The notes beneath the pieces were generated by a model. That model ran no database searches. It had not been told where the DNA came from and was given only the letters and a program-made list of their open reading frames with translations. From contig NZ_JAKSYD010000188.1 in the NCBI RefSeq assembly GCF_022829605.1, positions 62,001 through 126,000 on the forward strand: a stretch of DNA of 64,000 nt, given 5' to 3'. The first letter of the stretch is position 1. Each line of letters starts with the position of its first letter. A program made the translations under genes and the position numbers. The stretch is from Methylobacterium sp. E-065 (lineage in GTDB: Bacteria > Pseudomonadota > Alphaproteobacteria > Rhizobiales > Beijerinckiaceae). Below are positions 3,124 through 17,404 of this stretch, piece after piece.

Positions 3124-3264
3124 CCCCCTCTCCCGTGCGGGAGAGGGTTGGGGTGAGGGATGAGAACTCTCAGGATCGAGCACGTGATCGATGTGCCGAC
3201 GGGGCGCGCCTCGGTCTGAAAGTTCTCGACCCTCACCCTGTCCCTCTCCCGCTCGGGAGAGGGG
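3124..3264 (+). repeat. Palindromic intergenic repeat, type A copy 1
   Basis: The left half is CCCTCTCCCGTGCGGGAGAGGG followed by TTGGGGTGAGGG. About 100 bases on, the mirror half CCTCACCCTGTCCCTCTCCC precedes GCTCGGGAGAGGGG. Each end is itself a hairpin and the two ends are inverted copies, as in a BIME/REP-like or MITE-like element. Similar arms recur at 7973-8112 and, split, at 11608-11984. The flanks (about 3073-3123) also match the flank of the second copy, so the full element may be near 190 bases. Confidence 0.85.
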
Positions 3265-3390
3265 ACCCGCCCTCGACCCTGAACCGATATGGCCAGACCC
3301 GATGCGCGAATCCGCAAGCCCTCAAAGGGGGGCGGGAGGGCGCGTCGCAAAACGGACTGCCCCTCCCGGAACCCACCCCCGAGGACTCCC

Positions 3391-5381: not shown

Positions 5382-5927
5382 TCAGCGGCCCGCATTGCCG
5401 TCGCGCAGGGCGCCGGTCGGCTCCTGCACGTGGGCCTCGAGGAACCAGAGCTGCTTGTCGACCGCCCGGGAAATCTCCGTGAAGAGATCGGCCGTGTCGG
5501 GATCACCGGCCTCGTCGGTCTCGTCGATGTTCTCGCGGACCGCGTTGGCGTAGGCGGCGTAGCTGTCGATCAGCGCGGCGATGTGATCGGCGATCGCGTA
5601 GATGCCGGTCGGGTAGGCCGGCAGCTTGGTGCGCTCGGCGACGGCCTGGGTCGAGCCGAAGGCCGTGGCGCCGAGCTGGACCGCGCGCTCGGCGACGCTG
5701 TCGTTGAACTCGTCGATCTCGGTGCGGAACCCATCAAGCATCTCGTGGACGCCGATGAACTGCGGGCCCTTCAGGTTCCAGTGCGCCTGCTTGATCGCCA
5801 GCGCCAGATCGATGCCGTCCGCCAGCCGGGCGTTGAGGGCCTCGATCGAGACCTTCTTGGCGTTCGAGTCGGTGTTGTTGCGGGTCTTGTGCGACCGGGG
5901 GGTGTTGCTGGTGCCGGTGTCGGCCAT
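5382..5927 (-). CDS. dps: Dps-family ferritin-like DNA-protection protein
   Basis: Dodecameric mini-ferritin that oxidises and stores iron with peroxide and can bind DNA. About 181 residues. The family signature is AIKQAHWNLKGPQFIGVHEMLDGF followed by EIDEFNDSVAERAVQLG, which carries the inter-subunit ferroxidase His, Asp and Glu residues. The N-terminal 25 residues are Lys/Arg/Asn-rich (SHKTRNNTDSNAKK), as in Dps proteins that bind DNA. The start ATG (complement of 5925-5927) follows CGGAGC. It lies on the strand opposite to the GTA genes, between capsid and gp6, so it looks like cargo rather than backbone. Confidence 0.93.
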   Translation of the reverse strand: MADTGTSNTPRSHKTRNNTDSNAKKVSIEALNARLADGIDLALAIKQAHWNLKGPQFIGVHEMLDGFRTEIDEFNDSVAERAVQLGATAFGSTQAVAERTKLPAYPTGIYAIADHIAALIDSYAAYANAVRENIDETDEAGDPDTADLFTEISRAVDKQLWFLEAHVQEPTGALRDGNAGR

Positions 5928-6102
5928 GGTTTCGCTCCGTGAGCTTAAGAGGTTCGGATTCGAAAGTGTCGATGCGGCCACAGGTTCCCCGGGCGCGACC
6001 GATCCGGGGAACGCCGCGTGTCTGCCAGCACATGGCACGCCTAGCTGTCGCGGTGCGATCAGGGCTTGCGCTAAGTCCTTGTTCCGACGCGCTTACCGGC
6101 GG

Positions 6103-7011
6103 CTAGTTGCGGCGGGTGCGCGCCGTCCAGACGGGCCGGTTGCCGCGCGGCAGCGCATCGCTCACCTGCATCTGAGACAGTTCGGCCGCGCGCGCCGAGA
6201 TCCACCCGGCATGCTCGGCTACCGGGGTCACCGCGGTGAAGCCGCCGCAGGCGGTCCGGCGGGTTCCCTGCTGCAGCGCACCGCTCGACCAGCTCACCAC
6301 GCCGACGATCCGGTAGCCGCCCGGGCCCCCGGTGAGGATCGGGCCGCCGGAATCGCCCAGGCACGCGCCGGCCCCCGAGGTCTCGGCCATGCGGCGCCGG
6401 TCGGTCACCACGGTCACCCGGTTGGCGACCTGCAGCGAGCCGATCGAGACGAGATGCGCCAGCCGCAGGGTGCGGGCCGAGCCCCGCCGGTTTTCGGCGA
6501 CCACGCCGAAGCCCGCGATGTCGACCGGTTCGCCCGTGGTGATCGAGCCGGCGCCGCGCGGATCGAGGGGGGCGTAATCGGGGCCGAGGGGGCGTTCGAG
6601 CTTGAGCAGCGCCAGATCGACGCCGGGCTGCTCCTCCGGTGTCGTGCCGGGCACGAAATCGGGATGCATCGTCGTGGCTATCACCGCCGTCCGGCGCTGG
6701 CGGAAGCCCCGGTCGACGCCGATCACCGTGTAGCCTGCCGGACGCATCACGCAATGGGCGGCGCTGAGGACGAGATCCGGGGCGATCAGCGTGCCGGAGC
6801 AGATTTCGCCCTCCGTGCTCTCGATGCGCACGACGAAGCTGCGCGCCCCGTTCGGATCGCGGGTGGTCACGCCGTTGATCACCGCGGAGGCGGGCGCGGG
6901 GAGGAGCCCGGCCAGCGCCCCGAGCAACGCCGCACCCAGCAGGCCGCCCCCGAAACGCCCGCGTGCACAATGCCCGCGGAAGCCGGTCTTGCGGATCGGG
7001 CGAGGGAACAT
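6103..7011 (-). CDS. Secreted trypsin-like (S1) serine protease
   Basis: 302 residues. A signal peptide (about residues 1-43: basic start, hydrophobic LLGAALLGALAGLLP, then ASA) implies export. The catalytic triad is visible: His in LSAAHC, Asp in GVDLALLKL and Ser in GDSGGP. A propeptide-like VINGV after the signal resembles the trypsin activation site. Substrate unknown. Encoded opposite to the GTA genes, in the cargo block after dps. A second S1 protease (8626-9363) stands in the same block. Bacterial S1 proteases next to phage-like structural genes are unusual. Confidence 0.88.
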   Translation of the reverse strand: MFPRPIRKTGFRGHCARGRFGGGLLGAALLGALAGLLPAPASAVINGVTTRDPNGARSFVVRIESTEGEICSGTLIAPDLVLSAAHCVMRPAGYTVIGVDRGFRQRRTAVIATTMHPDFVPGTTPEEQPGVDLALLKLERPLGPDYAPLDPRGAGSITTGEPVDIAGFGVVAENRRGSARTLRLAHLVSIGSLQVANRVTVVTDRRRMAETSGAGACLGDSGGPILTGGPGGYRIVGVVSWSSGALQQGTRRTACGGFTAVTPVAEHAGWISARAAELSQMQVSDALPRGNRPVWTARTRRN

Positions 7012-7518
7012 CGGGCACTCCGGGGCGCGGTCGGCGCGGGTGGCACGCCCCAGACAGGCGGGCGACGTGGGGGAGCCTAGTGCAATGGAATGTCCTGGCC
7101 AAGCTGATGTTCCCTGCGGATCCGTTCCATCCAGGCCGGCGTCGCGAAGGTTTTTCAGGGGCTTCGCGCGGGGCGGCGTGCCGACGGGCCCGCGTCACAC
7201 GGTGTGTCCGCGACCGTCGTGACCCCCGCCTCGGGTCGCGGTCGGCACACGGAGCCGAGGCGATCCTTCGATTTCCCGGACAGAGGGGGCGTTTTTGGCA
7301 AATGCCATCCGCTTGCGAAACGATACGGTAGCCCTACCGTGCTATGAACGAGGACACGCGCAACCCGCCTCGGTAAGGGCTGGTGCCATGTTTGACCGAA
7401 GGGCACGGGACGCTGCATGCACGTCGAGTATCTGCCACACGGGTCTCCCGGGAAGAATATTAGGATGTCTCAGCCATGAGCGACCTGATTGCAGCAGTAG
7501 GCCTGGGGATCCGAAACA
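7012..7518 (+). other. Gap upstream of the first S1 protease
   Basis: About 500 bases with no defensible gene. It holds the divergent upstream regions of the minus-strand protease and the plus-strand small membrane gene at 7519. A short reading frame beginning ATGAGCGACCTGATT at 7476 overlaps the next gene and has no supporting features. From about 7270 on, base composition is less GC-rich than the surroundings, which suggests recent acquisition or regulatory sequence. Confidence 0.35.
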
Positions 7519-7746
7519 ATGATCGGCTTGCTGGTGATTGCCTTGGCTGGCGCGGTGATGGGGTGGTACTTCCGCGTCGGCTTTGTCATTATTGCCTGTT
7601 TGGTATTCCTCGTCGCTGATATTATCCGCATCATTCTGAAGTCGAGTTTCCAGTTTGCCGATATTTTGATCCTGCTGGCCTACATGTCGGCTCTGCAGGG
7701 TGGATTCATGCTCGGTGCTTATCTCAAGCATCGGCGCCGTGATTAG
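7519..7746 (+). CDS. Small hypothetical membrane protein (75 aa)
   Basis: Predicted as a nearly all-hydrophobic protein with about three membrane segments: roughly residues 2-15, 19-40 and 46-66. It ends in a basic LKHRRRD tail. No family recognised. The upstream sequence has only a weak GGGGAT ribosome-binding candidate. Codon use is noticeably less GC-biased at third positions (ATT, TTT, GTA) than in neighbouring genes, a sign of different origin. It lies alone inside the cargo block. The coherent hydrophobic pattern supports a real gene, but function is unknown. Confidence 0.5.
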   Translation: MIGLLVIALAGAVMGWYFRVGFVIIACLVFLVADIIRIILKSSFQFADILILLAYMSALQGGFMLGAYLKHRRRD

Positions 7747-7972
7747 AATGCGCTTTGCCGAAGGGGATGCGGGTCCGACCTGAGAGCGCGTATCGGAGCA
7801 AAGCCTCGGGCCGCTCCCGATCGCCACGCGACGATCCTGCGCCGACAGGCACGTCGCGTTCTGCCATCCACGCCGGTGCCAACCGGAGATTGGTGAACAC
7901 CGCGGGCCGCGGGGGCTACGCGTTTAACGCATTTGGGTTCGACATTGACGTTCGTGACGGAGCGCGACCGGC

Positions 7973-8112
7973 CCCCTCTCCCGAGCGGGAGAGGGTTGGG
8001 GTGAGGGACGAGAACGTTCAGGATCGAGCGCGCCATTACGATGCGTGCCGGTCGGGCCTCATTCGGACAAGTCTCATCCCTCACCCTGTCCCTCTCCCGC
8101 CCGAGAGAGGCG
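7973..8112 (+). repeat. Palindromic intergenic repeat, type A copy 2
   Basis: Left arm CCCCCTCTCCCGAGCGGGAG then AGGGTTGGGGTGAGGG; right arm CCTCACCCTGTCCCTCTCCC then GCCCGAGAGAGG. It matches the first copy in arms, in the internal GAACGTTCAGGATCGAGCGC segment and in the GCGCGACCGG flank. With the type B copy at 5217 it brackets the dps/protease/small-gene segment. The remaining stretch 7747-7972 holds the left flank of the element and no gene. Confidence 0.84.
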
Positions 8113-8259
8113 GCCTGCGCACCATCCTGCGGCCGAGTTGCCACGCACGAGGCGTGAATCCGCAAGCGCGCGGAGGAGTGAGCCGGTGCCGCATTCGGCC
8201 AAGTTGGCGTCACGGCCGCGAGGGGCTCGCAACGCAGCCGGGCGCGGCCGTGAGATGGC

Positions 8260-8370
8260 TCAGAGCCACCAGATCACAGTGCCGCGCAGATAAGAGGCCG
8301 CAGCCCAGAGGATAATCGCCGTCATCGAGAGCGTCAGGCCCCAGCCCAGGCGTTGTCGGTGGTTCAACAT
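8260..8370 (-). CDS. Possible 36-residue single-span membrane protein
   Basis: Reads MLNHRQRLGWGLTLSMTAII and then a short hydrophobic tail ending VIWWL: a basic N-terminus followed by one membrane span. There is no strong Shine-Dalgarno sequence before the ATG (complement of 8368-8370), and a longer in-frame extension exists to 8469. Small proteins of this form are common in Rhizobiales but rarely named. It sits within the cargo block between the repeat and the second protease. Reported with low confidence because of its size. Confidence 0.38.
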   Translation of the reverse strand: MLNHRQRLGWGLTLSMTAIILWAAASYLRGTVIWWL

Positions 8371-8625
8371 GCGTCGCGGATACCCCGGGGCCGGCTCGTC
8401 TTCGCGTGCGCAACCGCCCTTGTCGGGCCGTGCGACGAATCCCGCTTGGGATGGCCGCCCGGTCGGCAAAAGATCTCGGCATCGCGCCGACCCGTTATTC
8501 CCGAGACCTGTCGCGAGACGGAGTCGGGCATTAACGCGTTCGGTTCAGTAACCGATCCGTATTCGGTCCAGCGGGGCCGTGGGCGATGCAGACTGCGCAG
8601 CGGGCGGGTCGTCCCGAGCGGCGTA

Positions 8626-9363
8626 CTACTCGGTCCAGCGGGCGCTCCGACCCCATCCGCCGAGCACCTGATCAATCCAGCCGCGTTGCGGTCCGACCAG
8701 GACGCCCTGGGTGAGGCCGCCGCAGGTACCGCCGATCCAGGCGGCGAGCGCCCGCACGGTGCCGTCCGGCCCGATGATCGGGCCGCCGGAATCGCCCTGG
8801 CAGGCCCCGCCGGCGCTGCCCTGGAGCCAGACCAGGATGCGGCTCGGCCCGTAGGGCTCGATCACCGGTAGATTCAGGCTGCGATAGGTGCCGGTGGAGC
8901 GTGGATCCCCGGGCTTGGCGGCGCCGTAGCCGCCGAGGGTCAGGTCTTCGCCCGCCCGTGGCAGCGCGGCGCTCAAGGCCACCGGCGCGAAGCGCGCCGG
9001 CAGCGGCGTCGCGGTGCGCAGGAGCGCGAGGTCGATGGACCGCCGCCGGGCCTTCGCGGCGCCCGCGTCGTAGCCCGGATGCAGCGCCCGCGCCGCCACC
9101 TCGACCAGCACCGGCGCGCCGGACGCGTCGCGGAAATGCACGCGGTGCTGCGAGGCGTCGGCGAGGCAATGGCCGGCGGTGAGCACCGTGTCGGGAGCGA
9201 GCACCACGCCGGTGCAGACGCCGCCCTTCGAGGACAGGACCATCACGGCCCCGCCGGGCGTCGTCTCGGCCCCGCCCACGATGGCGCACGCGGAGCCGCC
9301 TGCCAGCGACAGGGCGACCGCGAGGGCGGCGAGAGCCGCCGGGCGGCGCTTCGAGACCCGCAT
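8626..9363 (-). CDS. Second secreted trypsin-like (S1) serine protease
   Basis: About 245 residues from the ATG at 9363; a TTG five codons upstream is also possible. A basic start plus hydrophobic LAALAVALSLAGGSACA gives a clear signal peptide, followed at once by IVGGAE, the classic trypsin N-terminus after activation. Triad: His in LTAGHC, Asp in SIDLALLR, Ser in CQGDSGGP. Shorter than the first protease and only moderately similar to it, so more likely an independent acquisition or old duplicate than a recent one. Its 5' end lies 27 bases from the gp6 start, so it abuts the resumption of the GTA backbone. Confidence 0.87.
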   Translation of the reverse strand: MRVSKRRPAALAALAVALSLAGGSACAIVGGAETTPGGAVMVLSSKGGVCTGVVLAPDTVLTAGHCLADASQHRVHFRDASGAPVLVEVAARALHPGYDAGAAKARRRSIDLALLRTATPLPARFAPVALSAALPRAGEDLTLGGYGAAKPGDPRSTGTYRSLNLPVIEPYGPSRILVWLQGSAGGACQGDSGGPIIGPDGTVRALAAWIGGTCGGLTQGVLVGPQRGWIDQVLGGWGRSARWTE

Positions 9364-9390
9364 CGGATTACCGCTCAAGAGGGACGCACC

Positions 9391-10845: not shown

Positions 10846-11256
10846 ATGGGCGCGCAGAAGGGCAAGGACCTGCTGATCCGGGCCGGCGATGGCGCGGGCG
10901 GCTTCGTGGCGGTGGCGGGCCTGCGCAGCCGCCAGATCACCCTGAACGCCGAGACCGTGGACGTCACCAACGCCGACTCCGCCGGGCGCTGGCGCGAATT
11001 GCTCGCCGGGGCCGGTGTGCGCCGGGCCGCGATCGCAGGCTCGGGCGTGTTCCGCGACCAGGCCTCGGACGCGCGGCTGCGCCTGATCTTCTTCGAGGGG
11101 GTGATCGAGACCTTCCAGGTCGTGGTGCCGGGCTTCGGGATCCTGGAGGGCCCGTTCCAGATCGCGAGCCTGGAATACCGCGGCGACCACGCCGGCGAGG
11201 TGACCTTCGACATGAGCCTCGATTCGGCGGGCGCGCTCGCCTTCGCGGCGGCGTGA
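10846..11256 (+). CDS. Major tail tube protein (gp9-like, TP901-1 type)
   Basis: 136 residues. Start ATG at 10846 follows a strong GAGGAGGC ribosome-binding site five bases upstream; the longer start at 10825 lacks one. The sequence carries KGKDLLIRAGDG, then TLNAETVDVTNADSAGRWRELL and a C-terminal FQIASLEYRGDHAGEVTFDMSL, the hallmark of the TP901-1-like tail tube family, which polymerises into the tail tube around the tape measure. Confidence 0.9.
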   Translation: MGAQKGKDLLIRAGDGAGGFVAVAGLRSRQITLNAETVDVTNADSAGRWRELLAGAGVRRAAIAGSGVFRDQASDARLRLIFFEGVIETFQVVVPGFGILEGPFQIASLEYRGDHAGEVTFDMSLDSAGALAFAAA

Positions 11257-11272
11257 GCCCGTGGGGCGTTCC

Positions 11273-12259
11273 ATGGCGAACCGGATCCGCGGCGCGGTGC
11301 CGCTCGACCTCGGCGGCCGGCGCTACACCCTCTGCCTCACCCTCGGGGCGCTGGCCGAGCTGGAGGATCTGCTCGGGGCCGGCGATCTCACGGGCCTCGC
11401 CGCCCGCTTCACGGCTGGCCGCCTCTCGGCGCGCGACCTGATCGCCCTGCTGGGGGTCGCCCTGCGGGGCGGCGGCCACGACCTCGACGACGCGGCGGTC
11501 GCCCAGCTGCCCCTGGCCGGCGGGCTCGAGGCCGTCACGACGGCCCTCGAAGCCGTCCTCGCCGCGGCGTTCGGGGAGGCGCCGGGGCCTGCAAACCCGC
11601 CTCAGGGCCCCCTCTCCCGTGCGGGCTGTGAAGTTCACACATCGCTGGCCGAGACGCGCTCTCCTCCCCCTTGTGGGGAGGAGGTGGGGGTGGGGCAGGA
11701 GGCACCGTCACGCTCGATCCTGAACCACCCCCACCCCTGGTCCCTCCCCGCAGGCTCGAGCGATCCCGGGCAGGCCCGGGATCGCCAGGGGAGGGGAAAC
11801 GCGCTTGGTTCTCAAGCCTTTGGCATCCAGCCGAGAAGTGTGAACGCACAAGCCCGTGCGGGAGAGGGTCGGGGCGAGGGACGAGAACCCGTAGATTTGA
11901 TCGATCCGTCGACGCGTGACGCGTGCACGCCGCCTTCGGAATCCGCGTATCCCTCACCCTGTCCCTCTCCCGCACGGGAGAGGGGACCCGCGCCGGGTTC
12001 GAGGCGGTTGGCACCCCCTTCGGCGGAGAGCGCTCAAGGATCGGAGCCGGATGCGTCGGTTCCGACCCGCCTGCCAAACGCCTTCCCCTGGGAGGACGCC
12101 CTGGCCGTCGGCCTCGGCGTGCTGGGTTGGCGTCCCGGTGACTTCTGGTCGGCGACCCCACGGGAGTTCGCCGCCGCCCTCGGCCCGCGCGCCCGGCCGG
12201 AGGCGCTCACCCGGGCGGGCTTCGAGGATCTGCTCGCCGCCTACCCCGACCGGACCTGA
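11273..12259 (+). CDS. GTA gp10 fused in frame to tail-chaperone (gp10.1-like) domain through inserted repeats
   Basis: Normally two short tail-assembly proteins. Residues 1 to about 110 form a GTA gp10-type domain (PLDLGGRRYTLCLTLGALAELEDLLG and LSARDLIALLGVALRGGG). The last 65 or so residues (FPWEDALAVGLGVLGWRPGDFW and ATPREFAAALG) form the small tail-assembly-chaperone-like domain. Between them lie about 150 residues encoded entirely by palindromic repeat DNA (11608-11984 and flank), low in structure and rich in Pro, Gly, Ser and Arg. The frame stays open across it, so a fusion protein of 328 residues is predicted. The start is the ATG at 11273; a GTG at 11261 is less likely. Whether the two domains are made as one chain is unknown. 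Confidence 0.72.
   Translation: MANRIRGAVPLDLGGRRYTLCLTLGALAELEDLLGAGDLTGLAARFTAGRLSARDLIALLGVALRGGGHDLDDAAVAQLPLAGGLEAVTTALEAVLAAAFGEAPGPANPPQGPLSRAGCEVHTSLAETRSPPPCGEEVGVGQEAPSRSILNHPHPWSLPAGSSDPGQARDRQGRGNALGSQAFGIQPRSVNAQARAGEGRGEGREPVDLIDPSTRDACTPPSESAYPSPCPSPARERGPAPGSRRLAPPSAESAQGSEPDASVPTRLPNAFPWEDALAVGLGVLGWRPGDFWSATPREFAAALGPRARPEALTRAGFEDLLAAYPDRT
11626..11852 (+). mobile_element. Nested MITE-like palindromic element (type B copy 2)
   Basis: 227 bases inserted in the type A arm. A 10-base CCCGTGCGGG flanks it on both sides (11616-11625 and 11853-11862), as expected for a target-site duplication. Its termini are imperfect inverted repeats: left CTGTGAAGTTCACACATC, right (complement) CTTGTGCGTTCACACTTC. 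Inside are the type B arms (CTCCTCCCCCTTGTGGGGAG at about 11661-11680, and CCACCCCCACCCCTGGTCCC with its partner). It encodes no protein of its own, so any movement would need a transposase supplied in trans. Confidence 0.65.
11760..11785 (+). repeat. Perfect palindrome nested inside the type B element
   Basis: GCGATCCCGGG at 11760-11770 and CCCGGGATCGC at 11775-11785 pair perfectly over 11 bases with a four-base CAGG loop. It splits what would otherwise be the right type B arm (TCCCTCCCCGC before it, GGGGAGGGG after it), which makes a third level of nesting. Confidence 0.7.
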
Positions 12260-12273
12260 GACGAGGCTGACCG

Positions 12274-12847
12274 ATGGCCGACACCGACGCCGACACGCAG
12301 GATTCCGCCCGGGCCGAGCGGCTGCAAAACCTCGACCGACTGGCCCAGAATTTCGGCCGCAGCCTCGACACGGCGCTGACCCGGGGGGGCCGCCTCCGGG
12401 CGCAGCCTCGACGGCGTGCTCGGCATGATCGGCACCCGGCTCGCCGGCGCGGCGACCCGGGCGGCGGGGGGCGCGATCCAGTCCGGGGTCACCGGGCTCA
12501 TCAATTCCGTGCTGGGCGCCGGCTCAGAGCCCGGCTTCGCCCGGGGCGGTGTGTTCCGGGCTGGGCGGGTCCAGCCCTTCGCGGCCGGCGGGGTGGTGGC
12601 GGCGCCGACCTATTTCCCCATGGCGGGCGGCACCGGCCTCATGGGCGAGGCCGGGCCGGAGGCGATCCTGCCGCTGGCCCGCGGCGCGGACGGGCGCCTG
12701 GGCGTCGCAGGGGGCGGGGCCTCGGCGCGGCCGGTCTCGGTGACGGTCAACATCGCCACGCCCGACCCGGGGGCGTTCCGCCGGTCCGAGGCGCAGGTCA
12801 CGGCGAGCCTCGCCCGCGCGGTGGCGCGCGGCCAGCGGGCGACGTGA
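12274..12847 (+). pseudogene. Short tape-measure protein (gp11-like) with a frameshift at a G7 run
   Basis: The tape measure sets tail length. The gene opens with ATG at 12274 (MADTDADTQDSARAERLQNL, then FGRSLDTALTRG). The frame then goes wrong at seven consecutive G (12383-12389). The expected continuation (AASGRSLDGVLGMIGTRLAG and onward, with PMAGGTGLMGEAGPEAILPLARG, a strong family motif) runs in the next frame to the stop at 12847. Removing one G restores a continuous protein of about 190 residues, the usual length for GTA gp11. Either a sequencing error, a true inactivating slip, or slippage at the homopolymer. The downstream part alone could start at ATG 12425. Confidence 0.75.
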
Positions 12848-12901: not shown

Positions 12902-13543
12902 ATGGCCGACGATTTCCACGAGGTGCTGTTTCCCCTCGACGTGTCGCTGCGCGCGAGCGGCGGCCCGCAGCGGCTGACCGAGATCGTCACCCTGGCCTCC
13001 GGACGGGAGCACCGGAACGGCCGCTGGGCGGATTCCCGCCGCCGCTACGATGCCGGCTTCGGGCTGCGCGGGCTCGACGCGCTCCACGCCGTCCTCGCCT
13101 TCTTCGAGGAGCGGCGCGGCCGCCTCTACGGCTTCCGTTTCCGCGACCGGGTCGATGGTCGCTCCGGGCCGCCGGGCCGGGCGATCGGCCCCCTCGACCA
13201 GCCGATCGGCACCGGCGACGGCACCACCGCGACCTTCCCGCTGGTGAAGACCTACGGGACCGGCTTCGCCCCCTATCGCCGCCGGATCGCCAAGCCGGTG
13301 GCCGGAAGCGTCCGGGTCGCGGTTTCCGGCCAGGAGGTCGGGCCCGAGGGCTTCGCGTGCGACGCGACGACCGGCCGCGTCACCTTCACGCCCGGCCATG
13401 TCCCGGCGCCCGGAGCCGCCGTCACCGCGGGCTTCGCCTTCGACGTGCCGGTCCGCTTCGACACCGACGAACTCACCATTGATCTCGCGGCCTTCACGGC
13501 CGGGGAGATCCCGCGGGTGCCGCTCGTCGAGATCGTGCCCTGA
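12902..13543 (+). CDS. DUF2460 distal tail protein (gp12-like)
   Basis: 213 residues. The family pattern is clear: FHEVLFPLDVSLRASGGPQRLTEIV, GREHRNGRWADSRRRYDAGFGLRG, FFEERRGRLYGFRFRDRVD and a late GHVPAPGAAVTAGFAFDVPVRFDTDEL. In RcGTA this protein forms the distal tail ring joining tube and baseplate. Start ATG at 12902. The spacer before it contains a short direct repeat (CGCCAACCCTC twice). Only ten bases separate it from gp13. Confidence 0.93.
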   Translation: MADDFHEVLFPLDVSLRASGGPQRLTEIVTLASGREHRNGRWADSRRRYDAGFGLRGLDALHAVLAFFEERRGRLYGFRFRDRVDGRSGPPGRAIGPLDQPIGTGDGTTATFPLVKTYGTGFAPYRRRIAKPVAGSVRVAVSGQEVGPEGFACDATTGRVTFTPGHVPAPGAAVTAGFAFDVPVRFDTDELTIDLAAFTAGEIPRVPLVEIVP

Positions 13544-14429: not shown

Positions 14430-14962
14430 GCGCGATGCGGCGGGAGATCGGTGCGGCTGCTTTGGGCGAGGCGCGGCTGTGGCTCGGCACGCCCTACCGT
14501 CATCAGGCCTCGCTGCGCGGAATCGGCTGCGACTGCCTCGGGCTGCTGCGCGGGGTCTGGCGCGGGCTCTACGGCGCCGAGCCCGAGGCGGTGCCGCCCT
14601 ATTCGGGCACCTGGGCGGTATCGGCTGCCCCCGGCACCGATCCGCTGACCGAGGCGGCCCTCCGCCACCTCGTGCCGGTGCCGGCGGCAGAGGCTGCGCC
14701 GCGGGCGGGCGACGTGTTGCTCTTCGCCTTCCGCCGCCACCTCCCGGCCTGCCACTGCGCCATCGCCACCGGTGACGGCGCCATGATCCACGCCCATGAC
14801 GGCGCGGTCGTCACCGAGGTGGCGCTTACAGGATGGTGGCGGCGGCACATGACCGGGGCGTTCCGATTTCCGGACGGCAGGTCAGACCCGCTTCACGAAG
14901 ATCCGGTTGCGACGGTGAGCTTGACGCCTAAGACGTCCATGACCTTGCGGACGGTCTCGTAG
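14426..14962 (+). CDS. NlpC/P60-type peptidoglycan endopeptidase (gp14-like), C-terminus altered
   Basis: A tail-tip cell-wall peptidase that helps DNA entry. 178 residues. Catalytic Cys lies in GCDCLGLLRGVWR and His in CHCAIATGDGAMIHAHDG. The family normally ends soon after GAFRFP. Here about 25 further residues (SDPLHEDPVATVSLTPKT and on) are read from DNA antisense to the 3' end of the neighbouring antitoxin gene, which overlaps by 70 bases. This suggests that insertion of the toxin-antitoxin segment removed the native stop and supplied a new one. Confidence 0.9.
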   Translation: MSAMRREIGAAALGEARLWLGTPYRHQASLRGIGCDCLGLLRGVWRGLYGAEPEAVPPYSGTWAVSAAPGTDPLTEAALRHLVPVPAAEAAPRAGDVLLFAFRRHLPACHCAIATGDGAMIHAHDGAVVTEVALTGWWRRHMTGAFRFPDGRSDPLHEDPVATVSLTPKTSMTLRTVS

Positions 14963-15177
14963 CGAAGCTTCGAGCCGGGCGTCAGGGCCTTGTAGAGGCT
15001 TTCCCGGCCCAGACCCGCCTCCCGGGCGATCTGCGACATGCCGCGGGCTTTGGCGACATCGCCGAGGGCGGCGATGAACAGTTCGGGATCGGGATCATCG
15101 AGGGCGGCGGCGAGGTACTCGGCGATGGCCGCCTCGCTGTCGAGGAACTCCGAGGCGTCAAAGGCACTGAAACGCAT
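14893..15177 (-). CDS. Antitoxin of a HigB/HigA-like addiction module (HTH)
   Basis: 94 residues. Contains FLDSEAAIAEYLAAALDDPDPELFIAALGDVAKARGMSQIAREAGLGRESLYKAL, the pattern of the short helix-turn-helix antidote family paired with HigB/Gp49-like toxins. It probably neutralises the toxin and represses the operon. Its start overlaps the toxin stop (ATGA at 15174-15177 on the reverse strand), the toxin-first order typical of this class. Convergent with gp14. Confidence 0.88.
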   Translation of the reverse strand: MRFSAFDASEFLDSEAAIAEYLAAALDDPDPELFIAALGDVAKARGMSQIAREAGLGRESLYKALTPGSKLRYETVRKVMDVLGVKLTVATGSS

Positions 15178-15479
15178 CAGGCGCTCCCATCAAGCTTGGC
15201 GGCCATGTCTCTGGCCCGCTGAATGTCCCGGATTTGACTCGACTTGTCTCCGCCGCAGAGCAGCAGATACGTCACCTCGCCGCGGCGGACATAATAGACA
15301 CGGTATCCGGGGCCATACGAAATCCGCATCTCGAAAATGCCCGCGCCCACCGGTTTCACATCACCGAGGCGACCCAGCCCGGCGGCACGGATCCGCGCCG
15401 CGACGCGAGCCTTGACGCGATGATCCCGCAGGCCGGCGAGCCAGGCCCGGAACGTGTCGGACAGCAGGATCGTCGTCAC
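15177..15479 (-). CDS. Toxin of the addiction module (RelE/HigB fold)
   Basis: About 100 residues from the GTG at 15479 (complement): TTILLSDTFRAWLAGLRDHRVKARVAARI, then GDVKPVGAGIFEMRISYGPGYRVYYV and LLLCGGDKSSQIRDIQRARDMA. This is the RelE-superfamily killer protein pattern, with the conserved basic GPGYRVYY strand. Such toxins usually cut mRNA at the ribosome. A longer frame to 15626 adds only an Arg/Cys-rich run with no family match, so the GTG is chosen. Cargo between gp14 and gp15. Confidence 0.87.
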   Translation of the reverse strand: MTTILLSDTFRAWLAGLRDHRVKARVAARIRAAGLGRLGDVKPVGAGIFEMRISYGPGYRVYYVRRGEVTYLLLCGGDKSSQIRDIQRARDMAAKLDGSA

Positions 15480-15552
15480 GCAGAGAACGTATCTGCTCGG
15501 ATACGTCGCGGCAAGGCGATGTTGGCGGCGGTGCGGTCTCGAACCGGCACCG

Positions 15553-17250
15553 TCACGCCGCCCGCACCGTCGCCAGGAAACGCACGACCTCGCCGCGCAA
15601 CGCCGCGAACTGCCGGGCGAGTTCATCCGCCGAACCGAGCACCTGGCCGGACGCGGTCTCGGTCTCCCCGGCGGCCGCGGCGACGCCCGTGATGGTCCGG
15701 GTCACGGCGTCGGTGCCCGCGGCGGCCTGCGCCACGCTCTGGACGATCTCCCGGCTCGCCGCACCCTGCTGGGTGATCGCCGCGGCCATCGCGGCGGTGA
15801 CGGCCCCGACCGCGCGGATCCGCTCGCCGATCGTGGTGATCGACAGCACCGCCGCCTCGGTCGAGCTCCGGAGCAATCCGATGCGCTGGCCGATCGTCTC
15901 GGTCGCCCGGGCGGTCTGGGCGGCGAGATCCTTGACCTCGCCCGCCACGACGGCGAAGCCGCGGCCGGCCTCGCCGGCGCGGGCCGCCTCGATCGTGGCG
16001 TTCAGCGCCAGCAGGTTGGTCTGACCGGCGATCTGCGCGATCAGATGCACGACGTCCGCGATCTCCGTCACCGCCGCGCTGAGGGCGCCGACCTGGCCGG
16101 TGCTCTGCTCGGCCTCGGTCACGGCTGCCTGGGTCAAGCGCGCCGATTCGTCCGCCCGGCGGCCGATCTCGGCGGCCGAGACCCCGAGCTGCTCGGCCGC
16201 GACCGCTGCGGTGTTCACGGTCCGGGCGGTTTCCTCGGCTGCGCCCGCCACCGTCGTGGACTGCTCGGCCGTGCCGCGGGCGGTGACGCTCATCGCCGAC
16301 GCGGTCGCCCGCAGCGCGGCTGCGGCGTCGGAGACCGTCCCGACGATCCCGCCGACCGTCGCCTCGAACGTGTCCGCCAGGTCCGTCATGGCGCGCTGCC
16401 GTTCCCTCGCAACCGTCGCGTCCGCCACGCGTCGGCTCTCGGCCTCTGCGGCAGTGCGCTGGGCCACGAGGGCGCGGATGCGATCGACGGCGTGCGCGAC
16501 GGCGCCAATCTCGTCGCGCCGCCGATCTCCGGCGATCCGTGCCTCGGCATCCCCCGCGGCCATCCGCTCCAGGCTCGCGACGAGACGGCCGAGCGGGCGC
16601 CCGATGCCGAAGATGCCGACTGCGACGGCGGTAACGAGCCCGGCGAGCAGGCCGAGCCCGGTATACGTCCAGAGGTCGCGGCGCATCCTCTCGATCTGCC
16701 CGGCAAGATCCTGCGCGCCGGCCGCCATGCGGTCGCTGATGCCCTCGCTGAGCGCACCGGTGCTTCGACCCAGGTCGGCGACGATCGGATCGATCTTCTG
16801 GTGCATCAGGGCGAGGGCGTCGACGTTGAGATTGGCTTCGCCGAGGATGCGCGCCTCCGACACGTCCGAGATGTAGCTTTCCACGCGGCCCCGCAGTGTG
16901 TCGACCTGATCCCTGAATTCGGGCGCCTCCGCGATCAAGGCCGCGAAGGTCTCCCGGAGCCCGATCACCGCGGTGTCGAATTCCTGGCTCGCCTGCTGGA
17001 TCCGTTCGGCCTCGGTCTCGGCGATGACGCGGTAGATCGCGTAATTCGTCTGATGGAACAGGCGGATGATCTGCCGCGCGCCCTCGGCCATCTTCGCGTC
17101 GTGGTCGATGAAGCGTGTGTACTGCTGGCCGATCGCCTCCAAGCGCCCGGTCTCGTGCCAGATGCAGCCGCCGATGATCGCCCCGATAACGAGGACGATC
17201 AGGACGATCTTGTGAATTATCTTCGGCTTGATCCCGAACTTTTTGATCAT
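15553..17250 (-). CDS. Methyl-accepting chemotaxis protein
   Basis: 565-residue inner-membrane receptor that signals to CheA. TM1 about 12-32, a helical periplasmic sensor of about 155 residues (four-helix-bundle type, no recognised ligand), TM2 about 190-212, HAMP, then a long cytoplasmic signalling domain with the conserved tip [20 protein letters not shown] and [15 protein letters not shown]. It lies on the minus strand between gp14 and gp15, beside the toxin-antitoxin pair, and is the second cargo segment in the GTA backbone. Complete by length and motifs. Confidence 0.94.
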
Positions 17251-17404
17251 CGTTCTGCGGCTTTCAGTATCTTTGCGGTTGAGGCGTTGTCGTTCGGGGC
17301 AGCGTTGCGACCCATCATCGGTTAAATCGGCTCGTCTGACCTTTGAGTCGGTTGCGAACCTCTTCGCTTATCGACGCAAAGTCTATTCCGTTCGGAGTCC
17401 TGCC

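Follow-up and report, generated by a model that had tools for sequence, protein, structure and literature searches.

Probable conversion of a frameshifted tail chaperone pair into an in-frame fusion by repeat insertion in Methylobacterium

A repeat insertion has probably converted a pair of tail assembly chaperones, once linked by a ribosomal frameshift, into a constitutive in-frame fusion of gp10, a linker, and a second chaperone domain (domain 2) in five species of Methylobacterium. We describe the fusion from the window, by which we mean the whole 64,000-nt stretch of DNA that we analyzed; its genome is G000, and the other fused genomes are G088, G081, G068, and G089. With unfused alleles in close relatives, this is a natural case in which a frameshift has seemingly been removed and both domains are still under selection, and it opens the question of whether the frameshift is needed to set the ratio of the two isoforms or just to make the long one. 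It also provides an example of an interspersed repeat rewriting a recoding signal.

The fused frame runs on the plus strand from 11273 to 12259, comprising 328 codons and a TGA, and a GTG at 11261 would extend it by 4 codons. Two Pfam families match within this single frame, both above their curated cutoffs: PF11836 (GTA gp10) over residues 6 to 101 (E = 1.8e-24) and PF09550 (tail assembly chaperone) over residues 271 to 327 (E = 6.6e-18). A previous reading of this DNA from its sequence alone (here, the sequence-only reading) had proposed exactly such a union of two tail-chaperone domains in one frame of 328 residues, and the Pfam matches bear it out. Domain 2 of the window lies in frame 0 with gp10 and not in the −1 frame that typifies a lambda G/GT-type pair. 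A sequencing artefact at the junction is rejected, the frame being kept in five different genome assemblies. Structure prediction of the fusion from five sequences was of low confidence (mean pLDDT of 43) and left residues 100 to 272 devoid of secondary structure; an Rfam scan of the linker returned no known RNA family, its 12 weak matches all lying far below the gathering scores.

Table 1. Coordinates of the fused gene, its component elements, and its nearest neighbors in the window
Feature	Position	Strand	Basis
gp9, tail tube, upstream neighbor	10846..11256	+	PF06199
gp10 domain, GTA tail chaperone 1	11273..11593	+	PF11836; gp10 query matched in 96/111 genus genomes
Relic slippery heptamer A AAC CCG	11593..11599	+	A AAC CCT in close relatives without repeats
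Repeat-encoded linker, 489 nt, 163 codons, stop-free in frame 0	11594..12082	+	Genome repeat matches
TGA at which a putative −1 product would terminate	11629..11631	+	10 codons past the heptamer
Nested middle repeat element	11634..11852 (outer limits approximate)		Genomic copies, e.g., L002 and L003
Innermost element, 33-nt palindromic insert	11755..11787		Present in copy L002, absent in copy L003
Outer palindrome-flanked repeat element	11853..11994		Right palindrome 11963–11984 intact; left one interrupted by nested element
Tail assembly chaperone domain 2, frame 0 in window	12083..12256	+	PF09550, GTA g10.1/g10.5
g11, tape-measure position, frame broken at G7 run 12383–12389	12274..12847	+	One frame in 12/12 relatives compared
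gp12, downstream neighbor	12902..13543	+	DUF2460 (Pfam)

As far as its genes tell, the locus appears to be an RcGTA-like head-tail cluster, with the genes in order around g10. The Pfam order is PF05521, PF06199, PF11836, PF09550, DUF2460, and NLPC_P60, which gives a head completion protein, the tail tube protein gp9, the DUF2460 protein gp12, and the NlpC/P60 protein gp14 as neighbors. Three of the eight proteins submitted had no Pfam match; the gene numbers of these unmatched proteins we take to be those of RcGTA, and g11 and gp13 were assigned by their place and by matches in relatives. Relatives gave matches to the window proteins g6 to g14, although the stretches retrieved did not contain every gene. 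Farther downstream on the same contig (C197:80665), PF13547 identifies gp15, whose TIM-barrel domain sits in an open frame 1,303 codons or more in length in all 13 genomes compared. The cluster is interrupted by minus-strand genes at 5382 to 9378 (between g5 and g6) and at 14893 to 17325 (after g14); by eye, the interrupting genes look like those for a Dps-like protein, two trypsin-like proteases, and a chemoreceptor.

Genomic copies show that the linker was built from interspersed palindromic repeats of the REP or MITE kind, dispersed in many copies and bearing palindromic ends. The 987-nt query returned at least 75 matches in its own genome, itself included (40 of the 443 first-look candidates were scored), and a 20-base palindrome occurs there at 80 sites with up to 2 mismatches, against 2 sites for the reversed pattern; each of 13 genomes holds between 5 and 157 such sites. 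Besides the copy at the gp10 junction (11853 to 11984), members of the same palindrome-flanked family, with palindrome pairs 116 nt apart, recur in the window at 3126 to 3263 (between gp3 and gp4) and at 7974 to 8111, the latter within the stretch that interrupts the GTA cluster before g6; the copies related to the outer element span 3132 to 3270 and 7980 to 8120. Copy L003 carries the middle element between palindromic flanks without the 33-nt third element, and copy L002 has that third element at the same point; on these two copies rests the nesting of the elements.

The sequence-only reading had derived about 150 middle residues from palindromic repeats and had counted three nested insertions. 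The repeat origin and the nesting both stand, the length of the linker being nearer to 163 residues, and the history of the insertions requires revision: the founding insertion is common to five species, and among these only the middle and innermost elements are peculiar to the genome of the window.

Of 111 genomes of the genus, 89 have a match to domain 2 and 96 a match to gp10. We read all 89 domain-2 junctions, leaving aside genomes with a gp10 match only. Relative to gp10, domain 2 lies in the −1 frame in 82 of them, in frame 0 with no intervening stop in 5 (the fused genomes), and 2 junctions are apparently broken. The last two (L026 in G066 and L028 in G087) show a split or short gp10 match with domain 2 in another frame, a disturbance that possibly reflects decay or assembly error. 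In a class-level sample, PF09550 occurred in 37 of 289 genomes. Of the 30 loci listed, we excluded two that belong to the genus, namely that of the window and that of G009; among the 28 read, 23 matched gp10 with 25 bits or more, and domain 2 lies in the −1 frame in 20 of the 23, in the +1 frame in 2, and in frame 0 behind a stop in 1. A start codon is lacking in 12 of the 20 −1-frame loci outside the genus. Within it, the 75 nt upstream of domain 2 contain neither ATG nor GTG nor TTG in the domain-2 frame at 30 of the 82 unfused junctions.

The nearest unfused relatives carry what looks like a −1 frameshift signal of the lambda G/GT type, combining a −1-frame second domain with a slippery heptamer and a covarying hairpin. 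In 18 of the 82 unfused junctions, those of G092 and G034 included, TAG is the stop codon of gp10, and without exception these have AAACCCT in the phase of gp10 (A AAC CCT). The codons at the heptamer are hardly used elsewhere in gp10: proline is encoded there by CCT in all 18, whereas none of the 35 proline codons in the first 100 codons of gp10 is CCT, and the codon preceding AAC is GCA in 16 and GAA in 2, GCA accounting for 7 of 381 alanine codons. Downstream of the heptamer, these 18 junctions share a hairpin of 9 pairs, of which 7 show changes on both sides, and 90.7% of cells pair. Counting related sequences as separate, the hairpin has a covariation score of 0.476; shuffles average 0.154, none of 500 reaching the observed value, and sliding gives 0.091 at most. 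Single-sequence folds gave z scores of −0.97 (G092), −2.94 (G034), and −4.65 (G017). For 47 of the 64 junctions whose gp10 does not end in TAG, a shared fold has 12 pairs, 3 of them with changes on both sides; much of it overlaps conserved coding sequence, and it is uninformative.

Over all 82 unfused junctions, the heptamer is AAACCCT in 31, GGGCCCT in 6, another [A/G]ACCC[C/T] motif in 40, and neither in 5; AAACCCT also occurs outside the genus, in Hongsoonwoonella (L107) and G299. A second junction form among the 82 has CCCT followed directly by TGA with an overlapping TTG, and a few such junctions have TAA or run without a stop into domain 2. A start codon overlaps the gp10 stop in 44 of the 82 unfused junctions (TTG in 40, GTG in 4), and at these junctions coupled re-initiation possibly takes the place of frameshifting, a route unavailable to the 30 junctions that have no near start at all. 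Frameshifting and coupled re-initiation may have been exchanged for each other within the genus. The junction sequences point to a frameshift signal in GTAs of the Alphaproteobacteria. Because AAACCCT is present in just 31 of the 82 junctions and an overlapping TTG or GTG in 44, frameshifting is well supported in the nearest relatives only, and the limited distribution of the heptamer counts against our main reading.

All five fused alleles depart from this ancestral layout in the same manner: inserted sequence separates the heptamer from the 3′ arm of the hairpin, no TAG remains, and domain 2 stands in frame 0. The sequence-only reading had held that any frameshift relation between the two chaperones was abolished, and had suggested comparing the locus in relatives without the repeats. 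That comparison agrees with it, with domain 2 in the −1 frame in the 82 unfused junctions and in frame 0 in the window, where the heptamer is parted from the hairpin's 3′ arm; the refinement is that part of the heptamer is retained in most of the fused species. We therefore favor the following scenario. In the ancestral pair, read as in lambda G/GT, translation would mostly terminate at the TAG that follows gp10; a smaller share of ribosomes would slip to −1 at A AAC CCT, aided by the downstream hairpin, and so produce gp10 joined to domain 2. A palindrome-flanked repeat would then have inserted between the heptamer and the hairpin's 3′ arm in an ancestor of the five-species allele. Comparison of the alleles shows the loss of the TAG and a change of phase that brought domain 2 into frame 0, after which ordinary translation should yield the long gp10-linker-domain 2 protein with no need for slippage.

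The reading frame has survived considerable change in the length of the linker. The five linkers measure 489 nt (G000), 204 nt (G088), 321 nt (G081), 321 nt (G068), and 318 nt (G089), all multiples of 3, and relative to G081 the net change in length before the last domain-2 codon is +168 in the window, −117 in G088, and −9 in G089. The locus was noticed in part because of the phase of the window itself; of these three net changes in multiples of 3, one falls in the genome that prompted the finding, and hence only two are unselected. Frame 0 is free of stops in five of five linkers, and stops occur in the −1 frame of all five and in the +1 frame of two. When its letters are shuffled, the linker remains open with P = 0.03 in the window and P = 0.15 to 0.51 in the other four species; the openness of one sequence alone is weak evidence, and four further in-frame genomes are stronger. 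A rough simulation, allowing substitutions only and started from the present-day linkers, kept four lineages stop-free with P = 0.016 to 0.021 and three with P = 0.045 to 0.055. The statistics for preservation of the frame are modest, suggestive and not overwhelming.

Between G081 and G068, differences at the first, second, and third codon positions number 2, 6, and 18 of 105 in gp10, 4, 4, and 11 of 60 in domain 2, and 28, 24, and 26 of 107 in the linker; in the corresponding counts for pairs with the window, 48 out-of-phase columns within the nested inserts were left out. Among the fused species (10 pairs), dN/dS is 0.13 for gp10 and 0.22 for domain 2, and among 8 unfused species (28 pairs) it is 0.18 and 0.19. 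For the linker, dN is 0.27 to 0.35 and dS 0.21 to 0.42 (6 pairs from four species, the window left out). Selection on the amino acids of the linker is rejected, the differences being even over codon positions and dN close to dS. In the fused species, purifying selection acts on both end domains, and the linker is neutral in its amino acids; the argument of the sequence-only reading that such a frame would hardly have survived if neither half mattered is thereby supported, the linker having stayed open and in frame in five species. From this neutral drift, the preserved phase, and the conserved ends, we infer that the linker tolerates nearly any sequence and changes of length in steps of three, and that it must stay open because it is the sole evident route to domain 2. 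At the level of sequence, the earlier interpretation is supported with these refinements, and it is from the sequence that we infer a single chain.

What has become of the slippery heptamer bears on the most serious alternative, which we regard as unlikely: that the roles of the two products are reversed as in dnaX, the long fusion being the default and a slip to −1 at the retained A AAC CCG yielding a short, gp10-like chain. The heptamer is in phase in four of the five fused species, in each of which the rare GCA precedes it, and the −1 frame reaches a stop 9, 10, 36, and 36 codons on. A precedent exists in Escherichia coli dnaX, whose short form arises by −1 slippage, and in some bacteria the roles are apparently reversed, according to the accessible text of PMC5009743. 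The same source gives the ratio of lambda G to GT as 30:1 and calls it crucial, which counts against our main reading: a lineage producing the long form alone should be at a disadvantage if it has no other way of obtaining a short one. Against slippage, the heptamer is parted from the 3′ arm of the hairpin by the insert, and the window sequence from the heptamer on folds no better than its shuffles over 78 nt (z = 0.42) and only slightly better over 128 nt (z = −1.41). The heptamer's CCT has been replaced in the four species by CCG, the commonest proline codon, G089 has lost the heptamer by deletion, and the retained GCA AAC may be mere inheritance. The change of CCT to CCG, the loss in G089, and the broken hairpin together suggest that slippage is no longer selected. 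A bolder form of this idea, in which the repeat inverted the switch from a lambda-like to a dnaX-like one and reversed the isoform ratio under continued selection on the GTA genes, with tail assembly adjusting to a neutral tether, 68 to 163 residues long, between the two chaperone domains, strikes us as slightly less likely again.

It is improbable that two separate chains are made, with domain 2 started inside the linker, gp10 ended by proteolysis or slippage, and the continuous frame incidental. Each fused species does have an in-frame TTG or GTG within the 240 nt before domain 2, including a GTG at −93 common to G088 and G089 (with GGGGAG just upstream in G088) and a TTG at −186 common to G000 and G081, the others being found in single species. 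None of the five, however, has an in-frame ATG in those 240 nt, nor do they all share a start position; moreover, an internally started domain would not need the linker upstream of it to be open and in phase.

We give least credence to simple decay, in which the fused species are losing their GTA and chance in GC-rich DNA accounts for the open frame. High GC does favor open frames, as the shuffled linkers of the four relatives attest, and g11 of the window, at the tape-measure position, is broken by a 1-nt frameshift at a G7 run. Runs of this kind are scarce (2 found in the window against ~34 expected), and the break is either a recent mutation or an assembly error; barring the latter, the GTA of the window genome may not work. 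Yet gp10, domain 2, and seven neighboring genes have dN/dS values of 0.10 to 0.42 in fused species, against 0.12 to 0.31 in unfused ones, g11 is in a single frame in the four other fused species, and the gp15 TIM-barrel frame is intact in every genome compared. A constitutive fusion under selection at both ends is our preferred reading.

The history of the fused allele is less straightforward than its structure. Because parts of the inserted sequence are alike across all five species, a single founding event is likely. The gp10 of the unfused G092 is 95% identical in protein sequence to that of the window, and therefore fused and unfused alleles coexist among close relatives. Gene trees for g6 to g14 (L069 to L080 plus the window) conflict from gene to gene. 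A concatenated tree of g6 to g9, g11C, g12, and g13 rejects a clade of fused species, in an AU test flagged for too few replicates, although the tree of g10 with domain 2 allows it (p-AU = 0.34), and the rpoB tree is poorly supported. A single clean origin by tree is rejected, and the failure of the neighboring GTA gene trees to group the fused species counts against our main reading. Given this conflict and the poor support of rpoB, recombination at the GTA cluster of related Methylobacterium would be the simplest reading.

Several known systems offer instructive comparisons. Xu, Hendrix, and Duda reportedly described in 2004 a conserved −1 frameshift of phage tail assembly chaperones, and in 2022 Vladimirov, Gautam, and Davidson are said to have found that T4-like phages make their tail chaperones without frameshifting. 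Rickettsia palindromic elements and other small repeats lie inside protein genes with the frame kept. Like the linker repeats, these Rickettsia elements are palindromic repeats translated within a protein in a preserved frame; the likeness is one of description, and the repeats described here join products that were formerly linked by a frameshift.

In the accessible text of PMC5009743, the tail-chaperone −1 frameshift is widely conserved in long-tailed phages, with T4 excepted; PMC12846349 and PMC3556154, as far as they are accessible, likewise portray it as widespread, and the available portion of PMC8601537, which also treats tail-chaperone frameshifting in phages, describes one Rhodobacter phage as being without it. 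For GTAs, the accessible texts name g10 and g10.5 as tail chaperones 1 and 2 (PMC11409702) and list g10.1 as a short gene (PMC9765227); the word "frameshift" is absent from the main texts of both. The accessible part of a paper on Wolbachia phage WO names gpG and gpGT, and the frameshift it discusses concerns a hydrolase gene and not an RcGTA-like chaperone (PMC10299305). Our search of a literature made up mostly of papers outside subscription found no description of a GTA chaperone frameshift signal or of a fused form.

The nearest unfused relatives of the window resemble lambda G/GT in having a −1-frame second domain, a heptamer, and a hairpin just before the tape-measure gene, whereas in the window and its four fused relatives domain 2 is in frame 0, repeats separate the heptamer from the 3′ arm of the hairpin, and no slip would be needed. 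T4-like phages provide a precedent for tail chaperones made without frameshifting. With RcGTA g10 and g10.1/g10.5 the fused gene shares its place in the cluster and its gp10 domain (pfam11836), but these are two genes there, as the accessible portions of PMC11409702 and PMC9765227 present them. With E. coli dnaX, as set out in the accessible text of PMC5009743, it shares a long product in one frame, an internal slippery heptamer, and a −1 stop soon after; dnaX, in contrast, has stimulators and both products, while in the fused alleles the hairpin is broken and the heptamer changed or deleted. The tail-chaperone frameshift pair is a known kind of system, and what appears to be new is its probable conversion, by the insertion of a repeat, into an in-frame fusion.
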